From Microbacterium sp. 1S1 (GTDB lineage: Bacteria > Actinomycetota > Actinomycetes > Actinomycetales > Microbacteriaceae), in assembly GCF_008271365.1 (NCBI RefSeq), contig NZ_CP043430.1:868001-932000 (forward strand): DNA of 64,000 bases, written 5' to 3'. The notes below the pieces were generated by a model. That model saw only the letters and a list, made by a program, of their open reading frames with translations, was not told where the DNA came from and did not search any database. The position numbers and the translations under genes are program-made. Within the stretch, counting starts at the first letter, position 1. Each line of letters opens with the position of its first letter. Shown here piece by piece: positions 22,947 through 33,820 of this stretch.

Positions 22947-23101
22947 CGTTGCCGGCGTCGACCGAGGCAGCCCTCGCCGCCGTGACGAAAGTCGGCGCGC
23001 TCTAGACGAAAGTCACCCTGGTGTCCGGCTGGACCCTCCAATAATCTCTCCGGTATCTCAGTTCGGAGGGCGGGCCGACTGAGCGATGCGCGGGAGTGCT
23101 C

Positions 23102-26100
23102 ATGCGGTTTTCACTGCGTCTGCTGTCGGACGACCGAGAAGGGGAGAAGGGCCGGAGGCGGCGGAAATCGCCATCCCGGCGCGCACCGTGGGCGGTGGCG
23201 ACGATGCTCGCTCTCGTCCTCGGATCGCTCGTCGCACCGGCGATGCCGGCGGTCGCGGCTCCCGGCGACCCGGCGCAGCTCTATCTCGGACCCTCGTACG
23301 AGGGGACGACGATCGGCTCCGACAAGGACTTCAACGCCCCGACGGAGTGTCCGGCGAACTCGCTGCTCACCGGTGTGCAGACGGAGAACCGGCAGAACGT
23401 CAGTCCGACGAACGCCAACTCGATCCTCGTGCGGATGAGTCTCCAGTGCGCCACGATCACCGTCTCAAACGCCGGTGCGATCACCCCGGTCGTGAACCCC
23501 ACGTGGATCACCGGGCCCACGTTCGACGAGGGGCGAGGCGACCTCCAGACCGCGGTGTGCCCGGCGAACACCTACGTCCACCGCATCACGGGCACCACCT
23601 TCGTCGGCGACGGGACCAACCGGTGGCCCTCGTCCGTGCAGATCACCTGTCGGCCGCTCGTGTTCACGGCGGCGGGCGAACTCCGCATCGACCTCTCGGC
23701 CACGCCGACGGTGCTCACGGCGGGCGAGAACCTCAACACGACCGGAGGTCTGGACACGCCTGCACCGCAGTGCGGCCCCGGAGGGACCACCGGCACGAGT
23801 GACATCCTCGTCCGCGGCTATCGGGCACAGGGCGGTGGCGAGGGCATCGACGGGTTCACTCCCTCCTGCACGACGATCGCCGACGACTTCGGTGACGCCC
23901 CGGCGAGCTATGGCTCGGTGTCTCAGGAGCTGAATGCCGCGACCTACCTCGGCTGGTCGGCCGACGCCGAGACGGCGATGCAGTCGAACGGCTCGGCCAC
24001 CGGCGACGACGCCGTCGGGGGAACGGCTCCGAACCAGACCATCGACGATGAGACCGCCGTCTCCGCGTTCGGGGAGATCATCGCGGGCGTCACCGATTCC
24101 TACTCGGTCTCCGTGCTGGCCTCGAACAAGCTCTCCGGGGTTCCAGCCACCCTGGTCGGTTGGGTGGACTTCAACCGCAACGGCGTCTTCGACGCGAACG
24201 AGGGCGCATCCGTCGTGGTGCCGGCGGGGACGCCGGACGGGTCGTCGTTCACGCTGACGTGGTCGGGCATCGCTCCGCAGACGGTCGCCGGACAGACGTT
24301 CGCGCGATTCCGGATCGGCGCGGGTTCGACCCTCACGACCTCGACGCCTACCGGCACCGGCGGCCCCGGTGAGGTGGAGGACTACGCCCTCTCGATCACC
24401 GCTGCGGCGCCCGTGCTGGAGTTGACGAAGACGGCGTCCCCGACGACGATCGCCGCCGCCGGCCAGACCGTCACCTACAGCTTCGCCGTCGCCAACACGG
24501 GGAACGTGGCGATCTCGGACATCGGCATCACGGAGACGTCTTTCAGCGGCACCGGTACGCTCGGCCCGATCACCTGCGCGGCCACGGCACTCGCGGTGGG
24601 GGAGAGCACGACGTGCACGGCCACGTACGCCCCGACGCAGGCAGATGTCGACGCCGGCACCATCACGAACTCCGCGCTCGCCACGGGAACCTCCGCCGCG
24701 GGGAGCGGCGTGGAGAGCAATGTGAGCAGCGCGGTCGTCACGGCGTCGCAGTCCACCTCGCTCACCGTCGTGAAGTCCGCGACCCCGTCCGGCCCGGACG
24801 ACTTCGTGGTCGGCCAGGTGATCGACTACTCCTTCGTCGTCACCAACACCGGAAACGTGACGGTGACGAACGTCTCGATCGACGAGACCGCGTTCGACGG
24901 ATCGGGCTCCCTCTCACCCGCGGTGTGCCCGACGACGCCGCTCGCGCCCGGGGCGCAGGTGACCTGTACGGCCAGCTACACCCTGACCCAGGCTGACGTG
25001 GACAACGGATCGGTCAGCAACACCGCCACCGCGACCGGCGTGCCCCCCGGGTCGCTGGTCCCGCCCGTCTCCCCACCGTCGACCGTCCGCGTGCCGGTCG
25101 ACCCGGCGCCGGCGATCACCCTCGCGAAGTCCGCCGACACGACGGCCATCACGGAGGCGGGACAGGTCATCGCCTACTCCTTCCTCGTGACCAACACCGG
25201 CAACGTGACGCTGACCGACGTCACCGTCGATGAGGGCGCCTTCACGGGAACCGGACCCCTTGAGGTCACGTGCCCGGCCGGTGCGGCGTCGCTGGCCCCG
25301 GGTGCGCAGGTGACCTGCACGGCGGACTACACCGTGACCGCAGCGGACTACAACACGGCCGCCCTGACGAACACGGCGACCGCCACGGGGACCCCGCCGG
25401 ACGGCACGCCGCCTGTCTCCCCGCCATCGACCGTCGAGATCCCGGTCACGCCCGCTCCGGCACTGACGGTCGCGAAGACCGCCGACCGCAGCGAGATCAC
25501 CACGGCAGGGCAGACCATCACGTACTCCTTCCTGCTCACCAACACGGGCAACGTGACGCTCACCGACGTCGGGGTCGACGAGGTGTCCTTCTCCGGCACG
25601 GGGACGCCGCCCGTGGTGACCTGCCCCGCGGGTGCCGCGTCGCTCGCTCCCGGTGACACGGTCACCTGCACGGCTCCGTACGTGGTGACCCAGGCCGACA
25701 TCGATGCGGGACAGCTGACGAACACGGCCACGGGCACCGGCAACCCGCCTGGAGGCGGTGAACCGCCGGTGTCACCCCCGTCCACCGTCGTGGTGCCGGC
25801 CATCGAGTCGCCCGCCATCACGGTCGTGAAGTCGGCCGATCCCGCCACCGTGGCGACGGTCGGCACGCCCATCACCTACTCCTTCCTCGTGACGAACACA
25901 GGCAATGTGACGCTCACCGACGTGACCGTGACCGAGACGGCCTTCACCGGGACGGGAACGGCGCCGGCCATCACCTGTCCTGCGGGTGCGGCGTCTCTCG
26001 CGCCCTCTGCGCAGATCACCTGCACGGCGACGTACACCACCACGCAGGCTGACATCGATGCGGGCCAGATCACGAACACCGCGACCGCCACCGGCACGCC

Positions 26101-28420
26101 TCCCGGGGAGATCGAACCGCCGGTCTCGCCGCCGTCGACCGCGATCGTCACGGTCCCGCCCGCTCCGTCCCTGACCGTCGCCAAGACCGCCGACCGGACG
26201 GAGATCACGGCCGCCGGACAGACGATCACCTACTCCTTCCTCATCACGAACACGGGCAACGTGACCCTGACCGATGTCGGCGTCACCGAGGTGACGTTCA
26301 CCGGGACGGGGACGGCACCGGTCGTGACGTGCCCGGCGGGGGCGGCGTCACTCGCTCCGGGAGCCACGGTCACGTGTACCGCCCCGTACGTGGTGACGCA
26401 GGAGGACGTGGACGCCGGTGGCGTCACGAACACCGCCACGGTGACGGGCGACCCGCCCGGTCCCGGCACGCCGCCGGTGTCGCCGCCGTCGACCGTGGTC
26501 GTGCCCTCGATCGAGTCGCCGGGCATCACGGTCGTGAAGTCGGCGTCTCCGAACACCGCGGCAGACTACGACGTGGGCCAGGAGATCACCTACTCGTTCG
26601 TGGTGACCAACACGGGCAACGTCACGCTCACCGACGTGACCGTGGACGAGACGGCGTTCTCCGGGTCCGGCGACTTGTCGCCGATCACCTGTCCTGCCGG
26701 TGCGGCGTCGCTCGCTCCGGGCGCACAGGTGACCTGCACCGCTAGCTACACGCTGACCCAGGCCGACGTGGATGCCGGGCGACTCACCAACACGGCGACG
26801 GCGACGGGCACGCCGCCGTCCGGTGAGCCCCCGGTGTCGCCCCCGTCGACGGTGGAGCTCCCTGGCGACCCGGAGCCGGGCCTGTCGGTCGTGAAGAGCG
26901 CGGATCGGGCGACGATCACCGCCGCGGGTCAGACCATCACCTACTCGTTCCTCGTGACGAACACCGGCAACGTGACGATCACGGATGCCACGGTGACGGA
27001 GACCGCCTTCACCGGGACGGGGACGCCGCCGGTGGTGGAGTGCCCCGCCGGAATCGCCTCGATGGCTCCGGGCGCGCAGGTGACCTGTACCGCCGAGTAC
27101 GTGGTGACACAAGCGGACCTGGATGCCGGGCAGATCACGAACGCCGCCACCGTCACCGGCAACCCGCCGGGCGGTGGGGAGCCTCCGGTGTCGCCCCCGT
27201 CGACCGTGGTGGTCCCCGGTGAGCGGACGCCGGCGATCAGCCTGGTCAAGTCGGCGAGCCCGGACAGCCCCGACACCTACGAGGTCGGTCAGGAGGTGAC
27301 GTACTCGTTCGTCGTCACGAACACGGGCAACGTCACGCTCACCGACGTCACGGTCGAGGAGGGATCCTTCTCGGGAACGGGCACGCTGTCCGCCATCGAC
27401 TGCCCGGCCGGCGCGGCATCCATGACCCCGGGAGCCCAGGTCATCTGCACGGCCACATATGAACTGACCCAGGCCGACATCGATGCGGGACAGGTGACGA
27501 ACACGGCCACGGCGACCGGCGTGCCACCGGGAGATCTCGAGCCGCCGGTGTCCCCGCCTGCGGAGGCCAGGGTGCCCGCACTTCCGGCTCCGGGCCTGAG
27601 CATCGTCAAGTCCGCGACGCCGGCCGCGATGACCACGGTCGGGCAGGTGTTGCAGTACAACTTCGTCGTGACCAACACGGGCAACGTCACCCTGACGGAT
27701 GTCGCGATCGACGAGGGCGAGTTCTCCGGAACGGGCGACCTGTCGCCCGTGGACTGCCCGGCGGAGGCCAGCAGCATGCTCCCCGGGCAGACGGTGACCT
27801 GTACCGCGAGCTACACGACCACGCAGGCCGATGTGGACTCGGGCGCGCTCACGAACACGGCGACGGCGACCGGAGACCCGCCGGGGGAGGGAGAGCCGCC
27901 GGTATCCCCGCCGTCGACGGTGCGCGTGCCCTTCGAGGGGACGAACGGGCTGGACATCGAGAAGAGAGCCATCGCCGTCGACGTGAACGGCAACGGGCGC
28001 ACGGATCTCGGTGACCGCGTGGAGTGGACGATCATCGTCACGAACATCGGGGCGCAGACCGTCGACGACATCGCCGTCACCGATCCGACCGCCGGACCCG
28101 TGACCTGCCCGGCGACGAGTCTCGCCTCCGGAGCGCAGATGACGTGCACGGTGCCTCCCCACACCATCGACGAGGACGACGTCCGCCGCGGCGGGGTTCG
28201 CAACGTCGCCACGGTCACGGGGAACACTCCCGGAGGCCCCATCGATCCGCCGTCATCGGAGGTCTTCACCCGAGTCCTTCCTCCGCCGCCGACCGGACTC
28301 GCGGTCACCGGCGGCACGCTCTCGGCAGGCGGGTTGCTCCTCGGCGGGGTCATGGTCCTCGCCGGGCTCGGCCTCGGACTCACCCGAGGCGTGCGACGAC
28401 GGGACCAGGAGCAGCAGTAG
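23102..28420 (+). CDS. Giant sortase-anchored surface protein with DUF7507/DUF11-type tandem repeats
   Basis: This protein of about 1772 residues has a long basic N-region and a signal helix (WAVATMLALVLGSLVAPAMP, cleavage near AVAAPG). A unique N-terminal domain of about 200 residues is followed by a GEVED-like domain (from DDFGDAPASYG to PGEVEDYALSI, with FNRNGVFDANEG). Ten repeats of about 117 residues follow, each with YSFxVTNTGNVTLTDV, CPAGAASLAPG and TQADxDAG motifs, then one divergent repeat. The C-terminus has the LAVTGG sorting signal, a membrane helix and RGVRRRDQEQQ. The ATG at 23102 has GGGAG 6 nt upstream; a GTG at 23096 is possible. It probably acts in adhesion or as an S-layer-like stalk. 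Confidence 0.9.
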   Translation: MRFSLRLLSDDREGEKGRRRRKSPSRRAPWAVATMLALVLGSLVAPAMPAVAAPGDPAQLYLGPSYEGTTIGSDKDFNAPTECPANSLLTGVQTENRQNVSPTNANSILVRMSLQCATITVSNAGAITPVVNPTWITGPTFDEGRGDLQTAVCPANTYVHRITGTTFVGDGTNRWPSSVQITCRPLVFTAAGELRIDLSATPTVLTAGENLNTTGGLDTPAPQCGPGGTTGTSDILVRGYRAQGGGEGIDGFTPSCTTIADDFGDAPASYGSVSQELNAATYLGWSADAETAMQSNGSATGDDAVGGTAPNQTIDDETAVSAFGEIIAGVTDSYSVSVLASNKLSGVPATLVGWVDFNRNGVFDANEGASVVVPAGTPDGSSFTLTWSGIAPQTVAGQTFARFRIGAGSTLTTSTPTGTGGPGEVEDYALSITAAAPVLELTKTASPTTIAAAGQTVTYSFAVANTGNVAISDIGITETSFSGTGTLGPITCAATALAVGESTTCTATYAPTQADVDAGTITNSALATGTSAAGSGVESNVSSAVVTASQSTSLTVVKSATPSGPDDFVVGQVIDYSFVVTNTGNVTVTNVSIDETAFDGSGSLSPAVCPTTPLAPGAQVTCTASYTLTQADVDNGSVSNTATATGVPPGSLVPPVSPPSTVRVPVDPAPAITLAKSADTTAITEAGQVIAYSFLVTNTGNVTLTDVTVDEGAFTGTGPLEVTCPAGAASLAPGAQVTCTADYTVTAADYNTAALTNTATATGTPPDGTPPVSPPSTVEIPVTPAPALTVAKTADRSEITTAGQTITYSFLLTNTGNVTLTDVGVDEVSFSGTGTPPVVTCPAGAASLAPGDTVTCTAPYVVTQADIDAGQLTNTATGTGNPPGGGEPPVSPPSTVVVPAIESPAITVVKSADPATVATVGTPITYSFLVTNTGNVTLTDVTVTETAFTGTGTAPAITCPAGAASLAPSAQITCTATYTTTQADIDAGQITNTATATGTPPGEIEPPVSPPSTAIVTVPPAPSLTVAKTADRTEITAAGQTITYSFLITNTGNVTLTDVGVTEVTFTGTGTAPVVTCPAGAASLAPGATVTCTAPYVVTQEDVDAGGVTNTATVTGDPPGPGTPPVSPPSTVVVPSIESPGITVVKSASPNTAADYDVGQEITYSFVVTNTGNVTLTDVTVDETAFSGSGDLSPITCPAGAASLAPGAQVTCTASYTLTQADVDAGRLTNTATATGTPPSGEPPVSPPSTVELPGDPEPGLSVVKSADRATITAAGQTITYSFLVTNTGNVTITDATVTETAFTGTGTPPVVECPAGIASMAPGAQVTCTAEYVVTQADLDAGQITNAATVTGNPPGGGEPPVSPPSTVVVPGERTPAISLVKSASPDSPDTYEVGQEVTYSFVVTNTGNVTLTDVTVEEGSFSGTGTLSAIDCPAGAASMTPGAQVICTATYELTQADIDAGQVTNTATATGVPPGDLEPPVSPPAEARVPALPAPGLSIVKSATPAAMTTVGQVLQYNFVVTNTGNVTLTDVAIDEGEFSGTGDLSPVDCPAEASSMLPGQTVTCTASYTTTQADVDSGALTNTATATGDPPGEGEPPVSPPSTVRVPFEGTNGLDIEKRAIAVDVNGNGRTDLGDRVEWTIIVTNIGAQTVDDIAVTDPTAGPVTCPATSLASGAQMTCTVPPHTIDEDDVRRGGVRNVATVTGNTPGGPIDPPSSEVFTRVLPPPPTGLAVTGGTLSAGGLLLGGVMVLAGLGLGLTRGVRRRDQEQQ
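24412..27938 (+). repeat. Ten-fold coding tandem repeat, unit about 350 bp
   Basis: Each unit encodes one beta-sandwich repeat of the surface protein. DNA-level conservation is highest around the codons for VTNTGNVTLTDV and for the Pro-rich junction EPPVSPPSTV. Neighbouring units can be aligned by eye, so unit number could vary by recombination. Confidence 0.85.
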
Positions 28421-28964: not shown

Positions 28965-30116
28965 TCAGCTGAACAGGACGAGGACGTAGACCCCGAAGGT
29001 CACCAGGTGGGCGGCACCGTGCATCGCGGTGACCCGCTTCGCCGCGAAGGTGGTGACGGAGAGCAGCAGCGTCACGGCGAGCATGAGGAGGTTCGCCGGC
29101 GACTCGGCGAGCACGACCTCCTGCCCGGTGAGCATGCCGATCAGGAGGACCGCCGGGATGGTCAGGCCGACCGTCGACACGAGCGCGCCGTGGCAGAGGT
29201 TGTTCACTCGTTGCGCCTCGCCGTTCAGGGCCGCGCGGATCGAGGTGATCGACTCCGGGAGGAACACGATGCCTGCGATCAGGAGGCCCGCCAGAGCGAC
29301 GGGGGCGCCGAGCCGTCCGAGACCGTCGTCGAGGAGCGCCGCCATGTCGTGCGAGAGCAGCACGATGGGGAGGACCGTCACGACGAGGAGGGCGAGGCGG
29401 GTCAGCACTTCGACACGATGGGTGGCGAGCACCTGCCGGACGGGGACCCGCGGCTCCGCTGTCGCGGTCGGACGGCCCGCGGACCGCAGCCGCTCGTCGA
29501 CCTCGGTGAAGTCATCGGCCTGCGGACCCATCTGGCGGATGAGGAAGAACGCGTACAGCGCGAGCGTGAGGACGATGATCGGGATCTCCTGGCCGACCGT
29601 GTACGCACCCGCGTCGCCGATGAGCCCAGGGAGCCCGAACGCCAGAGCGACGAGGACCACGAGCATCGACAGGTACGCCGACGTGCCGGTACGGTTGTGC
29701 GCCATTCCGCGATGGCGCAGGCCGCCGAGGAGGAGGGCCAGACCGATGACGAGGTTGAGGATGATCATCGACACGGCCATGACCGAGTCGCGCGCGATCG
29801 TGGCGTGCTCGCCCGGGCCGAGCATCACCGCCGAGATGAGGATGACCTCGATCAGCACGATCGACAGGGTCAGCACCAGCGATCCGTAGGGATCCCCGAG
29901 CCGGTGCGCGAGAGCCTCGGCCTGCTTCACGACCCCGAACGCGCACACGAGGATGACCGCGACGATCGCCGCGAGGGTGAGGACCAGCAGCGGACCGGGG
30001 ACCGGGGGCGCGAGTACGGGGTGCAGGACGAGCAGGGCGACGAACGCCCCCCACCCCAGGGCCACACGCAGGAGATCGCTCGGTGCGATCAGCTGTCTCA
30101 TCGACGATCCGGACAT
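28965..30116 (-). CDS. ChaA-like Ca2+(Na+)/H+ antiporter
   Basis: This 383-residue protein has about eleven membrane helices in two inverted halves of the Ca2+/cation antiporter superfamily. The paired acidic motifs are visible as SIVLIEVILISAVML in the first half and IVFLPESITSIRAALNGEAQ in the second. A hydrophilic loop of about 50 residues separates the halves. It exports Ca2+ or Na+ in exchange for protons. It is convergent with the lipoprotein gene. Confidence 0.88.
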   Translation of the reverse strand: MSGSSMRQLIAPSDLLRVALGWGAFVALLVLHPVLAPPVPGPLLVLTLAAIVAVILVCAFGVVKQAEALAHRLGDPYGSLVLTLSIVLIEVILISAVMLGPGEHATIARDSVMAVSMIILNLVIGLALLLGGLRHRGMAHNRTGTSAYLSMLVVLVALAFGLPGLIGDAGAYTVGQEIPIIVLTLALYAFFLIRQMGPQADDFTEVDERLRSAGRPTATAEPRVPVRQVLATHRVEVLTRLALLVVTVLPIVLLSHDMAALLDDGLGRLGAPVALAGLLIAGIVFLPESITSIRAALNGEAQRVNNLCHGALVSTVGLTIPAVLLIGMLTGQEVVLAESPANLLMLAVTLLLSVTTFAAKRVTAMHGAAHLVTFGVYVLVLFS

Positions 30117-30156: not shown

Positions 30157-30534
30157 TTACGTCAGGTCGTCCTGCTCGCAGCGCTGCGCGGGTGCGCAGA
30201 CTTCGATCGTACGCGCCGGGGTCTTCACGAGCTTGAGTCCGATGACGGCCGCCACGATCCCGGCGATGAACACGGCCTTGCCTGCGGAGAAGGTCTCCTC
30301 GCCGGTGAGCATCGCCCAGGAGACGGTGAGCACCGCCCCCAGGCCGACCCACACGGCATAGGCGGTGCCGATGGGGATCGTCTTCATCGCCGAGCCGAGG
30401 CCGATCATGCTCAGCGTCAGCGCCGCGAGGAAGACCACCGTCGGCAGGGGCTTCGTGAAACCGCCCGAGGCCCCCAGCGCCGTCGCCCAGACGGCTTCGA
30501 GGACGGCGCTGGTCACAAGGACCGCCCACGCCAT
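30157..30534 (-). CDS. Small multidrug resistance (SMR) transporter subunit, Gdx/YkkD-like
   Basis: This 125-residue protein has four membrane helices, the essential Glu in LEAVWATALGAS and the family motif IGTAYAVWVGLGAV. The final 20 residues, including two Cys, extend beyond the usual 105-110. It is encoded 1 nt after a second SMR gene, as in heterodimeric paired SMRs. A guanidine-III-like element upstream of the pair points to guanidinium export. Confidence 0.92.
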   Translation of the reverse strand: MAWAVLVTSAVLEAVWATALGASGGFTKPLPTVVFLAALTLSMIGLGSAMKTIPIGTAYAVWVGLGAVLTVSWAMLTGEETFSAGKAVFIAGIVAAVIGLKLVKTPARTIEVCAPAQRCEQDDLT

Positions 30535-30535
30535 C

Positions 30536-30850
30536 TCAGCTCACCACCTTGAGTCCGACCACGCTTCCGACCAGCAGCAGGAGGAGCAGGATGCGGGGGA
30601 GCGAGGCCCGCTCCGTGCCGGTCACCATGGCCCAGATGACGGTGAGCGAGGCTCCGATCCCCACCCACACCGCATAGGCGGTCCCCGTCGGCAGGTCGGT
30701 CATGGCCCACGCGAGGCCCAGCATGCTGAGGGTGAGCGCGACGACGAACAGCACCGTGGGCCGGGGCCTCTTCAGCCCCTTCGAGGCGGACAGCGCGGTG
30801 GCCCACACCGCCTCGAGGACGCCGGATGCGACGAGGATCACCCAGGACAT
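30536..30850 (-). CDS. Small multidrug resistance (SMR) transporter subunit, Gdx/YkkC-like
   Basis: This 104-residue, four-helix protein carries Glu in LEAVWATALSAS and the motif TGTAYAVWVGIGAS. It is the first gene of the pair. Its Shine-Dalgarno AGAAGGAG lies in a hairpin (GACTC-AGAAG-GAGTC, 30854-30868 on the minus strand) that overlaps the 3' strand of the riboswitch pseudoknot, so translation is probably ligand-controlled. Confidence 0.93.
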   Translation of the reverse strand: MSWVILVASGVLEAVWATALSASKGLKRPRPTVLFVVALTLSMLGLAWAMTDLPTGTAYAVWVGIGASLTVIWAMVTGTERASLPRILLLLLLVGSVVGLKVVS

Positions 30851-30853
30851 GAC

Positions 30854-30902
30854 GACTCCTTCTGAGTCAGTCGTCGTGTGCGGGTACTGCTCCCTCGTCC
30901 GC
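30854..30902 (-). promoter_or_regulatory. Guanidine-III (ykkC-III)-like riboswitch upstream of the SMR pair
   Basis: Read on the minus strand the element has GCGGACGAGG (30902-30893) and GTACCCGC (30887-30880), and ends with ACTGACTC (30871-30864). Helix P1 is GCGG/CCGC. The pseudoknot helix P2 is GAGCAGT with ACTG-A-CTC (one bulged A). The conserved GGACGAGG and GTACCC words match the guanidine-III class as remembered from the literature. The P2 3' strand can alternatively pair with the Shine-Dalgarno of the SMR gene, which gives a simple translational switch. Confidence 0.78.
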
Positions 30903-31003
30903 TGCTCCGGGGGCCGGAGTACCGCCAGGCTAGCTCGTGAACCACAACATCACCTGTGCAGGCGCGCGCGGGCTGTGGCTGGCGACGGCGAAGCGCTCTC
31001 TGC

Positions 31004-31075
31004 TACGGTGGCCCCAGGTTCGCAATCCGAACCTGCGGACGAGGGCGCAGTACCCGCAGAGCGACAAGACTGACC
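31004..31075 (+). promoter_or_regulatory. Second guanidine-III (ykkC-III)-like riboswitch, plus strand, no clear target
   Basis: A TACGGT -10 box (31004-31009) is followed by an 8-bp hairpin CAGGTTCG/CGAACCTG (31015-31035), then by the motif: CTGCGG (31033-31038), ACGAGG, CAGT, CCGCAG (31054-31059), GACAAGAC, ACTG (31069-31072). P1 is a perfect 6-bp CTGCGG/CCGCAG helix, and the GACAAGAC word is intact. A GACC-AAGAA-GGTC hairpin covers a Shine-Dalgarno-like AGAAGG, 7 nt before a GTG at 31090. The frame from that GTG conflicts with the gene at 31208. Confidence 0.72.
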
Positions 31076-31207
31076 AAGAAGGTCGTCTCGTGTCGCATCT
31101 CGCCGGTGGAACCGCCCCCGCAGCCTCCGCCCCTCCGTGCATGCCGGCCTTCTCGGTTTCCCGCCCTTCCGCCGACCGCATCGCCGCATCCTCGGAAGGG
31201 AGGTTCC

Positions 31208-31465
31208 GTGGACGCGCTCTTCGGAACGATCATCGGGCTGGCCATCCTCACCGTCATCCTCGGGCTGGCGCGTGCCTTCACGCGCGGGTACGACCACGCC
31301 GTCCGCTACGACGACCTGAGCCACGAACGGCTGCACGCGCTGACGGAGGGCGACCTGGCAGCGCTCGAGATCCGCGATGTCGATGCCTGGCTCGAGCTGC
31401 GCCGGGTGGAGCGTCGGATGACGGCCCTGCGCGCGCGGGCCGCGTCCGTGCGCAGCGAGCGCTGA
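31208..31465 (+). CDS. Small membrane protein upstream of cytochrome b
   Basis: This 85-residue protein has an N-terminal membrane helix (about 4-25) and a charged cytoplasmic helix (YDDLSHERLHALTEGDL, then ELRRVERRMTALRARAASVR). The GTG start has GGGAGG 5-10 nt upstream. It lies 74 nt before the cytochrome b gene and probably shares its transcript, downstream of the orphan riboswitch. No family is recognised. Confidence 0.75.
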   Translation: MDALFGTIIGLAILTVILGLARAFTRGYDHAVRYDDLSHERLHALTEGDLAALEIRDVDAWLELRRVERRMTALRARAASVRSER

Positions 31466-31539
31466 CGCCGCTCGAGCCGTTTCCCGACACCACCCCGACC
31501 CCGACCATCTCCTGACCGATCCCGAAGAGGACACGCATC

Positions 31540-33237
31540 ATGGCCACGACCGGCACTCGCGACCAGACCCCGCCCGACGCCCCGCCGAAGCGGGGTGCAC
31601 GCTTCGTCGGTGCCGCGTCGAACTACATCGACGAGCGCACCAGCATCTCCGGGCTCGTGAAGGAGCTGGGGCGGAAGGTGTTCCCCGATCACTGGTCGTT
31701 CATGCTGGGGGAGATCGCGCTCTGGGCGTTCGTGGTCGTCTTCATCACCGGCACGTTCCTGACCTTCTTCTTCCAGGCGTCCATGGTGCCGACCCACTAC
31801 ACCGGCGCCTACGCCCCGATGCGCGGCATGGAGATGACGGCCGCGTTCGACTCCGCTCTCCGGATCTCCTTCGATATCCGGGGCGGGCTGCTCGTTCGAC
31901 AGATGCACCACTGGGCCGCGCTGGTCTTCGTCGCGGGCATCGGACTGCACATGCTGCGCGTGTTCTTCACGGGCGCGTTCCGCAAGCCGCGTGAGTTGAA
32001 CTGGGTGATCGGCTTCGTCCTGTTCATCCTCGCGATGGCCGAGGGCTTCACCGGCTACTCGCTGCCCGATGACCTGCTCTCGGGCAACGGCCTCCGCATC
32101 ATCGACGGCATGATCAAGGGCCTTCCGCTGATCGGCACCTGGACCTCGTTCCTCCTCTTCGGCGGCGAGTTCCCCGGTACCGACATCGTCGGGCGCCTGT
32201 ACACCCTGCACATCCTCATCCTGCCGATGCTGGTGATCGCACTCATCGCGGTGCACATGCTCCTGATGATCGTGAACAAGCACACGCAGTTCGCGGGCCC
32301 CGGCCGCACGAACGCGAACGTTGTCGGCTACCCGATCATGCCGGTGTACGCGGCGAAGATGGGCGGGTTCTTCTTCCTCGTCTTCGGGGTGATCGCGGTG
32401 CTGGGAACCTTCTTCCAGATCCTGCCGTTCTGGATCTACGGCCCGTACGACCCGTCACCGATCTCGGCGGGGACGCAGCCGGACTGGTACATCGGGTTCG
32501 CGGACGGCGCGCTCCGTCTCGCTCCGCCGAACTGGGACATCGTGCTGTTCGATCGCACCTGGTCGTTCGGCATCATCGTCCCGGTAGCCGTGATGGGTCT
32601 CTTCATCCTCACGGTGCTCTTCTACCCGTTCATCGAGGCGTGGGTCACCGGCGACAAGCGCGAGCACCACATCGCCCAGCGTCCGCGCAACGCGGCCACG
32701 CGCACGGCGATCGGCGTCGCCGGCGTCATCTTCTACGCAGTCCTGTGGGCGGCGGCGTCGTCCGACCTCATCGCGACGCACTTCATGCTCACCATGGAAG
32801 GCGTCATCCACACGCTGCAGGCGCTGCTGTTCCTCGGGCCGATCATCGGCTACTTCGTCACGAAGCGCATCTGTATCGCACTTCAGAAGAAGGACCGTGA
32901 GATCGTCCTCCACGGCTTCGAGTCCGGGCACATCGTCCGCCTCCCCGGCGGCGAGTTCATCGAGGTGCACCAGCCGGTCGACACCTACGACCGCTGGAAG
33001 CTCATCGACGTCGACGGCTACGAGCCCCTCGTGGTGCGCCCGAACGCCAAGGGCCGAATCCCGTGGACGGAGAACCTCCGCTCGGCGATGTCGCGCTGGT
33101 TCTTCGAGGACCGTCTCGCCCCGCTCACACAGGCCGACATCGACCGCATCGATGCCGGGCACACGTCGCAGGCCCCCGAGCCGGACGGCGAGATCGAGAG
33201 GGACGGCCGGACGCATGGGTCGCTCGAGGACCGCTGA
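31540..33237 (+). CDS. Cytochrome b subunit of a bc1-type complex (QcrB-like)
   Basis: This 565-residue integral membrane protein carries the two b-haems of a quinol:cytochrome c oxidoreductase. Haem-ligand histidines are seen in RQMHHWAA, GLHMLR, LYTLHILI and AVHMLLM. The Qo-site region (the PEWY equivalent) is altered, reading SAGTQPDWYIGF. A hydrophilic C-terminal extension of about 130 residues follows the last helix, as in actinobacterial QcrB. Unusually, qcrC, qcrA and cta genes are absent around it, so it may be a second, stand-alone copy. The ATG is preceded by GAAGAGGA. Confidence 0.9.
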   Translation: MATTGTRDQTPPDAPPKRGARFVGAASNYIDERTSISGLVKELGRKVFPDHWSFMLGEIALWAFVVVFITGTFLTFFFQASMVPTHYTGAYAPMRGMEMTAAFDSALRISFDIRGGLLVRQMHHWAALVFVAGIGLHMLRVFFTGAFRKPRELNWVIGFVLFILAMAEGFTGYSLPDDLLSGNGLRIIDGMIKGLPLIGTWTSFLLFGGEFPGTDIVGRLYTLHILILPMLVIALIAVHMLLMIVNKHTQFAGPGRTNANVVGYPIMPVYAAKMGGFFFLVFGVIAVLGTFFQILPFWIYGPYDPSPISAGTQPDWYIGFADGALRLAPPNWDIVLFDRTWSFGIIVPVAVMGLFILTVLFYPFIEAWVTGDKREHHIAQRPRNAATRTAIGVAGVIFYAVLWAAASSDLIATHFMLTMEGVIHTLQALLFLGPIIGYFVTKRICIALQKKDREIVLHGFESGHIVRLPGGEFIEVHQPVDTYDRWKLIDVDGYEPLVVRPNAKGRIPWTENLRSAMSRWFFEDRLAPLTQADIDRIDAGHTSQAPEPDGEIERDGRTHGSLEDR

Positions 33238-33820
33238 GCCTCTCGCGGGCCGCAGGGTCGGCGCGGGTGTCGGACTCGCCGTCGTCGTGGTCGCCTTCCT
33301 CCTCGCGGGGCTCCCCTGGGCCGGAGGTGCGCTCGCCGTGGCCGCGGGGATCGCCATCGTCCGCCGCTCCTCTCCGTCGCAGCGGGCGGAAGGCAGAGAG
33401 CCGACATTTCTGTTCGTCCTCGTCGCCCACGGCGATCGGCGCGCCCCCGGCTTGGTGCTGCGGCTCCCGGCAGGAGGAGGCGACGCCCGGCGGCTGCGGG
33501 CCGGCGGCTGGAGCGTGCTGGAGCCTCCGGTCAACGGTCCTCTGGCGCCGCCCGGGCGGGTGGCGGTGGAGTTCGACGGCGACGATCGCCTGCGGGTGCG
33601 CGACCTCGCGGAAGTGTGGGGCGCGCACACCGAGGCGGCGCGGGAGAACGCGGTACCGCACGGGTGGGGGAACGCGGCGGAGGAGCTCGGCTACGTCGTG
33701 CTGCTCGCGGTGCACGAGGGGGAGGAGCACCCGCTCCGGCAGGACGGGGCGGTGCGGTCCCCCACCCTCGGGGCCTACGCCATCCTCCGCGGAACGCCGT
33801 CCGGGCGTCGGCGAGGATGA
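33215..33820 (+). CDS. Membrane-anchored protein of unknown function
   Basis: This 201-residue protein overlaps the cytochrome b gene by 23 nt. It has one or two membrane helices near residues 15-48 (VGLAVVVVAFLLAGLPWAGG) and a soluble remainder of about 150 residues rich in Gly, Arg and Pro. No family is recognised. The overlap and shared direction suggest co-translation with cytochrome b. Other long frames here look like compositional shadows, so the call is moderately secure. Confidence 0.6.
   Translation: MGRSRTAEPLAGRRVGAGVGLAVVVVAFLLAGLPWAGGALAVAAGIAIVRRSSPSQRAEGREPTFLFVLVAHGDRRAPGLVLRLPAGGGDARRLRAGGWSVLEPPVNGPLAPPGRVAVEFDGDDRLRVRDLAEVWGAHTEAARENAVPHGWGNAAEELGYVVLLAVHEGEEHPLRQDGAVRSPTLGAYAILRGTPSGRRRG

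Follow-up and report, generated by a model that had tools for sequence, protein, structure and literature searches.

The systems closest to the locus analysed here are Guanidine-III (ykkC-III) riboswitches in front of exporters of the small multidrug resistance (SMR/Gdx) family, the actinobacterial qcrCAB genes and transporters controlled by Guanidine-II. The 2010 description of ykkC-III names emrE and speB as associated genes (PMC2864571), and the SMR/Gdx arrangement was the commonest in our own survey, with 186 of 199 loci classified. The window, a stretch of 64,000 nucleotides (G000:C1:868001-932000) from the Microbacterium sp. 1S1 genome, shares with these exporter loci the aptamer and, by similar sequence, a start codon (ATGTC in the exporters) opposite GACA. 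In contrast to them, what begins at the start codon here is not an exporter but a leader frame, and the gene behind it encodes a respiratory cytochrome b, termed qcrB2. This gene resembles its counterpart in qcrCAB in being a full QcrB by NF050120 with its histidines retained, but it stands alone, whereas the canonical copy of the same genome sits behind ORFs that we read by eye as cytochrome oxidase subunit III (CtaE), QcrC and the Rieske protein QcrA. Guanidine-II, which according to a review occurs mostly in Proteobacteria (PMC12186494), precedes an antiporter in six of seven islands of the kind found here, in two of the six with a score under the cut-off, and differs from the reviewed cases in sharing one locus with Guanidine-III. 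Taking the comparative evidence together, we consider it quite probable that the locus holds a working Guanidine-III ON switch for a qcrB2 operon, which would keep bc1 respiration going under guanidine stress.

A covariance-model search (cmscan, Rfam 15) placed a Guanidine-III match (RF01763) at 31013-31078 on the plus strand, with 46.0 bits against a cut-off of 36 and an E value of 2.2e-6 over the whole window, bearing out the original prediction of a complete motif. When the entire genome (3.40 Mb, one contig) was scanned, this aptamer ranked first, followed by a divergent minus-strand one at 33.9 bits and a third match at 19.6 bits. The ACGA, GTACCC and GACAAGAC segments and the partner helix were all found in it, and GGACGAGG, GTACCC and GACAAGAC stand as they had first been read. 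Within the partner helix CAGU/ACUG is intact; two pairs of the model helix are non-standard. Two other details fared less well: the perfect 6-bp P1 helix (CTGCGG/CCGCAG) is present in the window, but two aligned relatives keep only its inner GCGG/CCGC whole, and the supposed extra competing hairpin in front of the motif is the ordinary 5' hairpin in the structure line of the family model. Just 5' of the aptamer we read a -10-like hexamer, TACGGT (31004-31009, plus strand), as a candidate promoter element; the remaining five qcrB2 leaders have TACGGT or TAGCTT at equal spacing. The aptamer itself scores 42.7-47.1 bits across all six qcrB2 loci, and we class the motif at 31013-31078 as a genuine Guanidine-III riboswitch.

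The gene qcrB2 (31540-33237, plus strand) scored 726.5 bits with the model for actinobacterial QcrB, the cytochrome b subunit of bc1 (cut-off 500), and is 87% identical to the canonical qcrB of its own genome (G000:C1:2986334). Pfam and NCBIfam searches with nearby ORFs revealed neither qcrA nor qcrC, in agreement with the earlier reading of a stand-alone cytochrome b after a small protein. That small protein, of 85 aa (31208-31465, plus strand), has one hydrophobic N-terminal stretch, a strong SD of its own and no Pfam family over the cut-off. Its gene is also present in G345 and LCT-H2, and we did not detect it in the four loci of group A (G214, G127, G077 and G213); five database relatives were retrieved, and a search of 149 genus genomes, a draw outside which G345 fell, returned the protein itself and one weak match (37% identity, E 9.5e-4). 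Overlapping the end of qcrB2 lies a 201-aa protein (33215-33820, plus strand) with a hydrophobic N-terminal part and no Pfam match over the cut-off, which has three database matches, itself included, and relatives after qcrB2 in the other five genomes; it is a possible partner of QcrB2.

We regard qcrB2 as an established gene under strong purifying selection, with dN/dS of 0.07-0.18 among the six paralogs (15 pairs) at dS of 0.41-0.61. An unrooted maximum-likelihood tree of 56 rows (the six paralogs and 50 canonical rows) separated the paralogs by a branch with 100/100 support from the canonical copies of the window genome, G214, G345 and G077. A version with an outgroup, in which the paralogs needed two changes, was discarded, as the outgroup was a wrong open frame with a branch length of 5.3. 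In the stretch from residue 51 to residue 419, the paralogs retain all 11 histidines; His 123, 124, 137, 224 and 239, which we take to be the heme ligands, are present in 6/6 paralogs and 47/47 canonical copies. Among 339 positions invariant in these 47 canonical copies, 317 are retained in all paralogs and five (47, 104, 271, 289 and 352) are changed in all six. By our own count along the alignment, position 352 corresponds to residue 342 of the mycobacterial chain, which one report places, by modelling, close to the site of quinol oxidation (PMC6178619). As this concerns only one of the five changed sites, we do not claim that the pocket is changed.

A search of 366 genus genomes with the window QcrB gave matches in 358 at E 1e-100 or better. 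At least five genomes besides that of the window (G345, G214, G127, G077 and G213) hold a QcrB 89-90% identical to it, the next matches reaching 87% and less. Among the matches listed from the 366 genomes, Guanidine-III lies upstream on the same strand at all six qcrB2 loci: four of them (G345, G214, G213 and the window) were positive in a scan in which none of nine canonical qcrB loci was, and G127 and G077, scanned separately, were positive too. A further QcrB in G116 (L073), 50% identical, had no guanidine riboswitch, and G213, a 94% complete assembly, had one QcrB and no canonical copy among the matches listed. A pattern scan of a contig collection yielded 13 loci, four in front of qcrB2 (MYb62, MYb54, BEL163 and LCT-H2), seven in front of SMR genes and two in front of another operon; of these four, Microbacterium sp. 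LCT-H2, with a QcrB fragment 98.7% identical to that of the window, adds a seventh case of riboswitch and qcrB2 together to the six above. The original prediction would have been refuted by relatives that keep the downstream gene and have lost the motif; we saw the opposite, with the motif present in 6/6. It had also found no recognised target gene, which is wrong on this evidence: qcrB2 is the likely target, although the leader in between is untypical. Its suggestion that guanidine controls a respiratory operon gains support from the comparison, the arrangement recurring in all six genomes found with the paralog, and guanidine control of the respiratory subunit is the reading we favour.

This target is unusual. 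In 159 Guanidine-III loci, 30 from the genus and 129 from the family (29 among the matches listed and 100 fetched stretches, from a search that matched 191 of 398 genomes), the next gene was SMR in 154; in the other five it encoded a small membrane protein with two helices. Another 40 genus loci, mostly from the weaker end, gave 32 SMR genes; the remaining eight (24.6-31.3 bits) matched none of five window proteins and were set aside. No qcrB was found behind any of the 199 loci so classified (186 SMR, five small membrane protein, eight none), and the association of riboswitch and qcrB stays within a single paralog group of a single genus. The genes on the qcrB2 side, encoding the 85-aa protein, the QcrB paralog and the 201-aa protein, are not among the known targets (emrE/SMR and speB), which are the usual association of Guanidine-III and not a structural requirement of the family. 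In the accessible parts of the open-licence literature searched, no guanidine riboswitch linked to cytochrome b or qcrB was found.

Other loci in the survey also had uncommon genes behind Guanidine-III. In five from Microbacteriaceae (L106, L161, L181, L188 and L214), the riboswitch is followed by a two-helix membrane protein of 82-96 aa (GQVVQVVGSLLVLAGF type) and no SMR gene; the one such protein tested had a weak likeness to Pfam Imp-YgjV, under the cut-off. In M. sufflavum and LCT-H2 (L271:6840-6904 and L279:5118-5181, both minus strand), Guanidine-III is combined with the same GACTGACC platform and a GTG leader before two genes, one for a protein of roughly 50 aa that has a single hydrophobic stretch and one for a lipoprotein showing a weak BNR-like repeat; we read this as a further non-exporter guanidine operon.

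The minus strand of the window carries an island of genes behind guanidine riboswitches, which the original prediction had overlooked. The divergent second Guanidine-III aptamer (30861-30924, minus strand; 33.9 bits, under the cut-off of 36, found with a lax threshold over 30400-31560) has the SD and ATG of SMR1 directly 3' of it. SMR1 (30536-30850, minus strand) is a SugE/Gdx-like SMR family transporter (PF00893, 74.4 bits; best NCBIfam model SugE with 90.5 bits, under its cut-off of 126), and SMR2 (30157-30534, minus strand; PF00893, 64.6 bits) is its probable partner subunit. A probable Guanidine-II riboswitch (mini-ykkC, RF01068; 30135-30174, minus strand; 31.2 bits against a cut-off of 32) overlaps the end of SMR2 and precedes a CaCA-family (ChaA-like) cation/proton antiporter (28965-30116, minus strand; PF01699, 80.6 bits; NF007895 ChaA, 164.6 bits, under its cut-off of 505). 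Adjoining the island, 23096-28420 encodes a 1774 aa protein with repeated 'VKSADP...VTNTGNVTLTDV' units and a hydrophobic C-terminal stretch.

A guanidine riboswitch lies directly 5' of the antiporter in all seven loci, of class II in the window, G214, G127, G077, G213 and LCT-H2 and of class III in G345, three of the seven scoring under the Rfam cut-off (the window; LCT-H2, 26 against 32 bits; G345, 34.4 against 36 bits). Guanidine-II is over the cut-off before the antiporter in four relatives, each of which carries two Guanidine-II copies in all (36.0-45.1 bits). On its antiporter side G345 lacks the SMR pair, and the antiporter frame extends without a stop back to the Guanidine-III's own ATG, twelve codons before the start that matches the relatives. 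In the stretch fetched for the group A loci no SMR gene was found; there, another Guanidine-II (36.0-37.4 bits; L071:10297-10341, plus strand, with matching places in L072, L098 and L099) precedes a membrane-type protein of 94 aa, divergent from qcrB2, whose ORF has 94 codons in 4/4 loci, two hydrophobic stretches and no Pfam match over the cut-off. Two further Guanidine-II matches, C1:821479 in the window's own genome (31.8 bits) and C1:916515 in G345 (29.8 bits), were dismissed as chance, with no fitting gene start close downstream. As the RNA class and the exporter vary while guanidine control stays, guanidine appears to be the signal that matters at the island.

How the riboswitch might reach qcrB2 is suggested by the leader. 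A predicted OFF-state hairpin (31061-31096, plus strand) pairs GACAAGACUGACC of the aptamer with the stretch around the SD, AGAAGG (31077-31082), and the start codon GUG (31090-31092), the aptamer segments GACAAGAC and GACC facing GGUC, GUCU and the region of the GUG. Its 33-nt core (31063-31095) folds at -13.6 kcal/mol (z -3.06; 1/200 shuffles as good), so that the SD-masking hairpin proposed ahead of the GTG at 31090 holds as a prediction: the expression platform would mask the SD without ligand, hiding AGAAGG and GUG. Because the GACAAGACUGACC strand also makes the partner helix of the aptamer, the predicted hairpin and aptamer states are mutually exclusive. In longer leader pieces of G127 and G077, a similar hairpin outdid shuffled sequences by a small margin only (z -2.04 and -1.16). 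Across nine loci, seven of them qcrB2 loci, which gave six distinct rows, the hairpin is largely intact, with pairing in 94% of 84 cells compared with 19-53% after a shift of 1 to 3 columns. Among the five relatives, one pair is broken in G077 and none in the other four; at least one is broken in each of G077, M. sufflavum and the second LCT-H2 locus. No covariation was found in the six distinct rows, where no pair changed on both sides, because the sequences are too alike.

The frame opened by the riboswitch GTG runs from 31090 to 31515 (plus strand) over 141 codons, its stop 24 nt 5' of the qcrB2 ATG, and is out of register with both the 85-aa protein and the cytochrome b, as had been stated. 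In G345 it has 138 codons and ends 18 nt before qcrB2, and in both genomes it crosses the 85-aa gene in a different register. The frame has 59 codons in all four group A loci, with a GTG-to-ATG distance of 169 nt and a stop 11 nt inside qcrB2, at 71-84% nucleotide identity of the leaders and without net length change. The proposal of an unannotated short peptide found no backing here: dN/dS of the frame is 0.58-1.92 (seven pairwise comparisons), and its openness is not significant, arising by chance in 44-64% of resampled leaders for the 59-codon form and in 16-18% for the long form, so that a coding role for the frame is not supported. With no selection on the peptide and no significant openness, we read the leader as a spacer that may pass ribosomes on or cover the mRNA. 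As the frame stops beside or over the qcrB2 start, its translation may serve as a coupling device or protect the mRNA. In the SMR arrangement the strand equivalent to GACAAGACUGACC is followed by the ATGTC of the exporter, which makes the GTG (GTGTC) the counterpart of the exporter start.

Put together, these elements outline a possible course of events. Without guanidine, GACAAGACUGACC of the aptamer would fold onto AGAAGG...GUG and hide the ribosome site and start of the leader frame. In the Guanidine-III class the same strand enters the aptamer pseudoknot when guanidine is present; at this locus, the move of GACAAGACUGACC into the pseudoknot would let ribosomes start at the GTG at 31090 and run to the qcrB2 start, leader translation keeping the mRNA alive, handing ribosomes on to qcrB2, or both. 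For this class, the review cited above describes both translational ON switching and mRNA stabilisation (PMC12186494). qcrB2 also carries an SD of its own, so some guanidine-independent translation is possible. The product would be a replacement cytochrome b for bc1, made while the neighbouring guanidine-controlled transporters expel the cation.

The likeliest purpose would be to keep the bc1 branch working under guanidine stress, through either a guanidinium-tolerant QcrB or added capacity for proton-driven exporters. In its specific form, that under control of the riboswitch a guanidine-tolerant paralog takes the place of the complex III cytochrome b and assembles with the resident QcrA and QcrC, the first idea is tentative. 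The second keeps the same wiring for another end, with qcrB2 not tolerant and simply adding bc1 capacity to pay for export; we hold it to be about as tentative as the first. The review gives an exchange of two protons per guanidinium for SMR exporters (PMC12186494), the adjoining antiporter resembles a proton-coupled family, and the shortness of the list of canonical-invariant positions altered in all six paralogs, five, also speaks for added capacity. Against it, the paralogs form a separate group, and at the window locus the b subunit alone is duplicated, without QcrA or QcrC, so that replacement suits the locus better than extra complexes.

That the switch is a relic or hitch-hiker, left before qcrB2 by happenstance after the loss of an SMR gene and governing nothing there, we consider improbable. 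The position of the GTG in the place of the SMR start codon (GTGTC against ATGTC), the leader frame free of peptide constraint and the SMR pair missing from G345 but present in the island of the window are what such a history would leave. The original prediction had offered a relic of a lost guanidine gene as one of its options, and we disfavour it because the arrangement is conserved, the switching hairpin is kept in relatives and the neighbours are guanidine-controlled: the riboswitch has been retained in 6/6 genomes at the qcrB2 dS given above, and the aptamer and most of the hairpin have persisted while the group A leaders diverged. Slightly less probable still is a riboswitch governing only the 85-aa membrane protein, or a leader peptide, with qcrB2 under its own promoter: the 85-aa gene does come first in the window, with its strong SD and apparent selection (dN/dS 0.36 against G345, one comparison), but it was not found in any of the four loci of group A, whose leaders continue directly into qcrB2, and the leader peptide shows no constraint.

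We therefore return to the preferred reading, a guanidine ON switch for qcrB2, and to what it would imply. It would exemplify a riboswitch that works by way of a leader frame without conservation at the peptide level. Guanide compounds are on record as mitochondrial inhibitors (PMC5609876); our limited search, covering parts of the literature, found no report of free guanidine inhibiting bc1. A guanidine riboswitch before a spare cytochrome b, also in the relatives found to carry that copy, suggests that guanidine alters the respiratory machinery of these cells besides their export pumps. Should the subunit swap be true, the quinol-oxidising bc1 complex would be a specific cellular target of guanidine, and target replacement would stand besides export and breakdown as a bacterial response to it. 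A spare cytochrome b read out by guanidine thus points to the respiratory chain as affected by this compound, an idea that is open to test.
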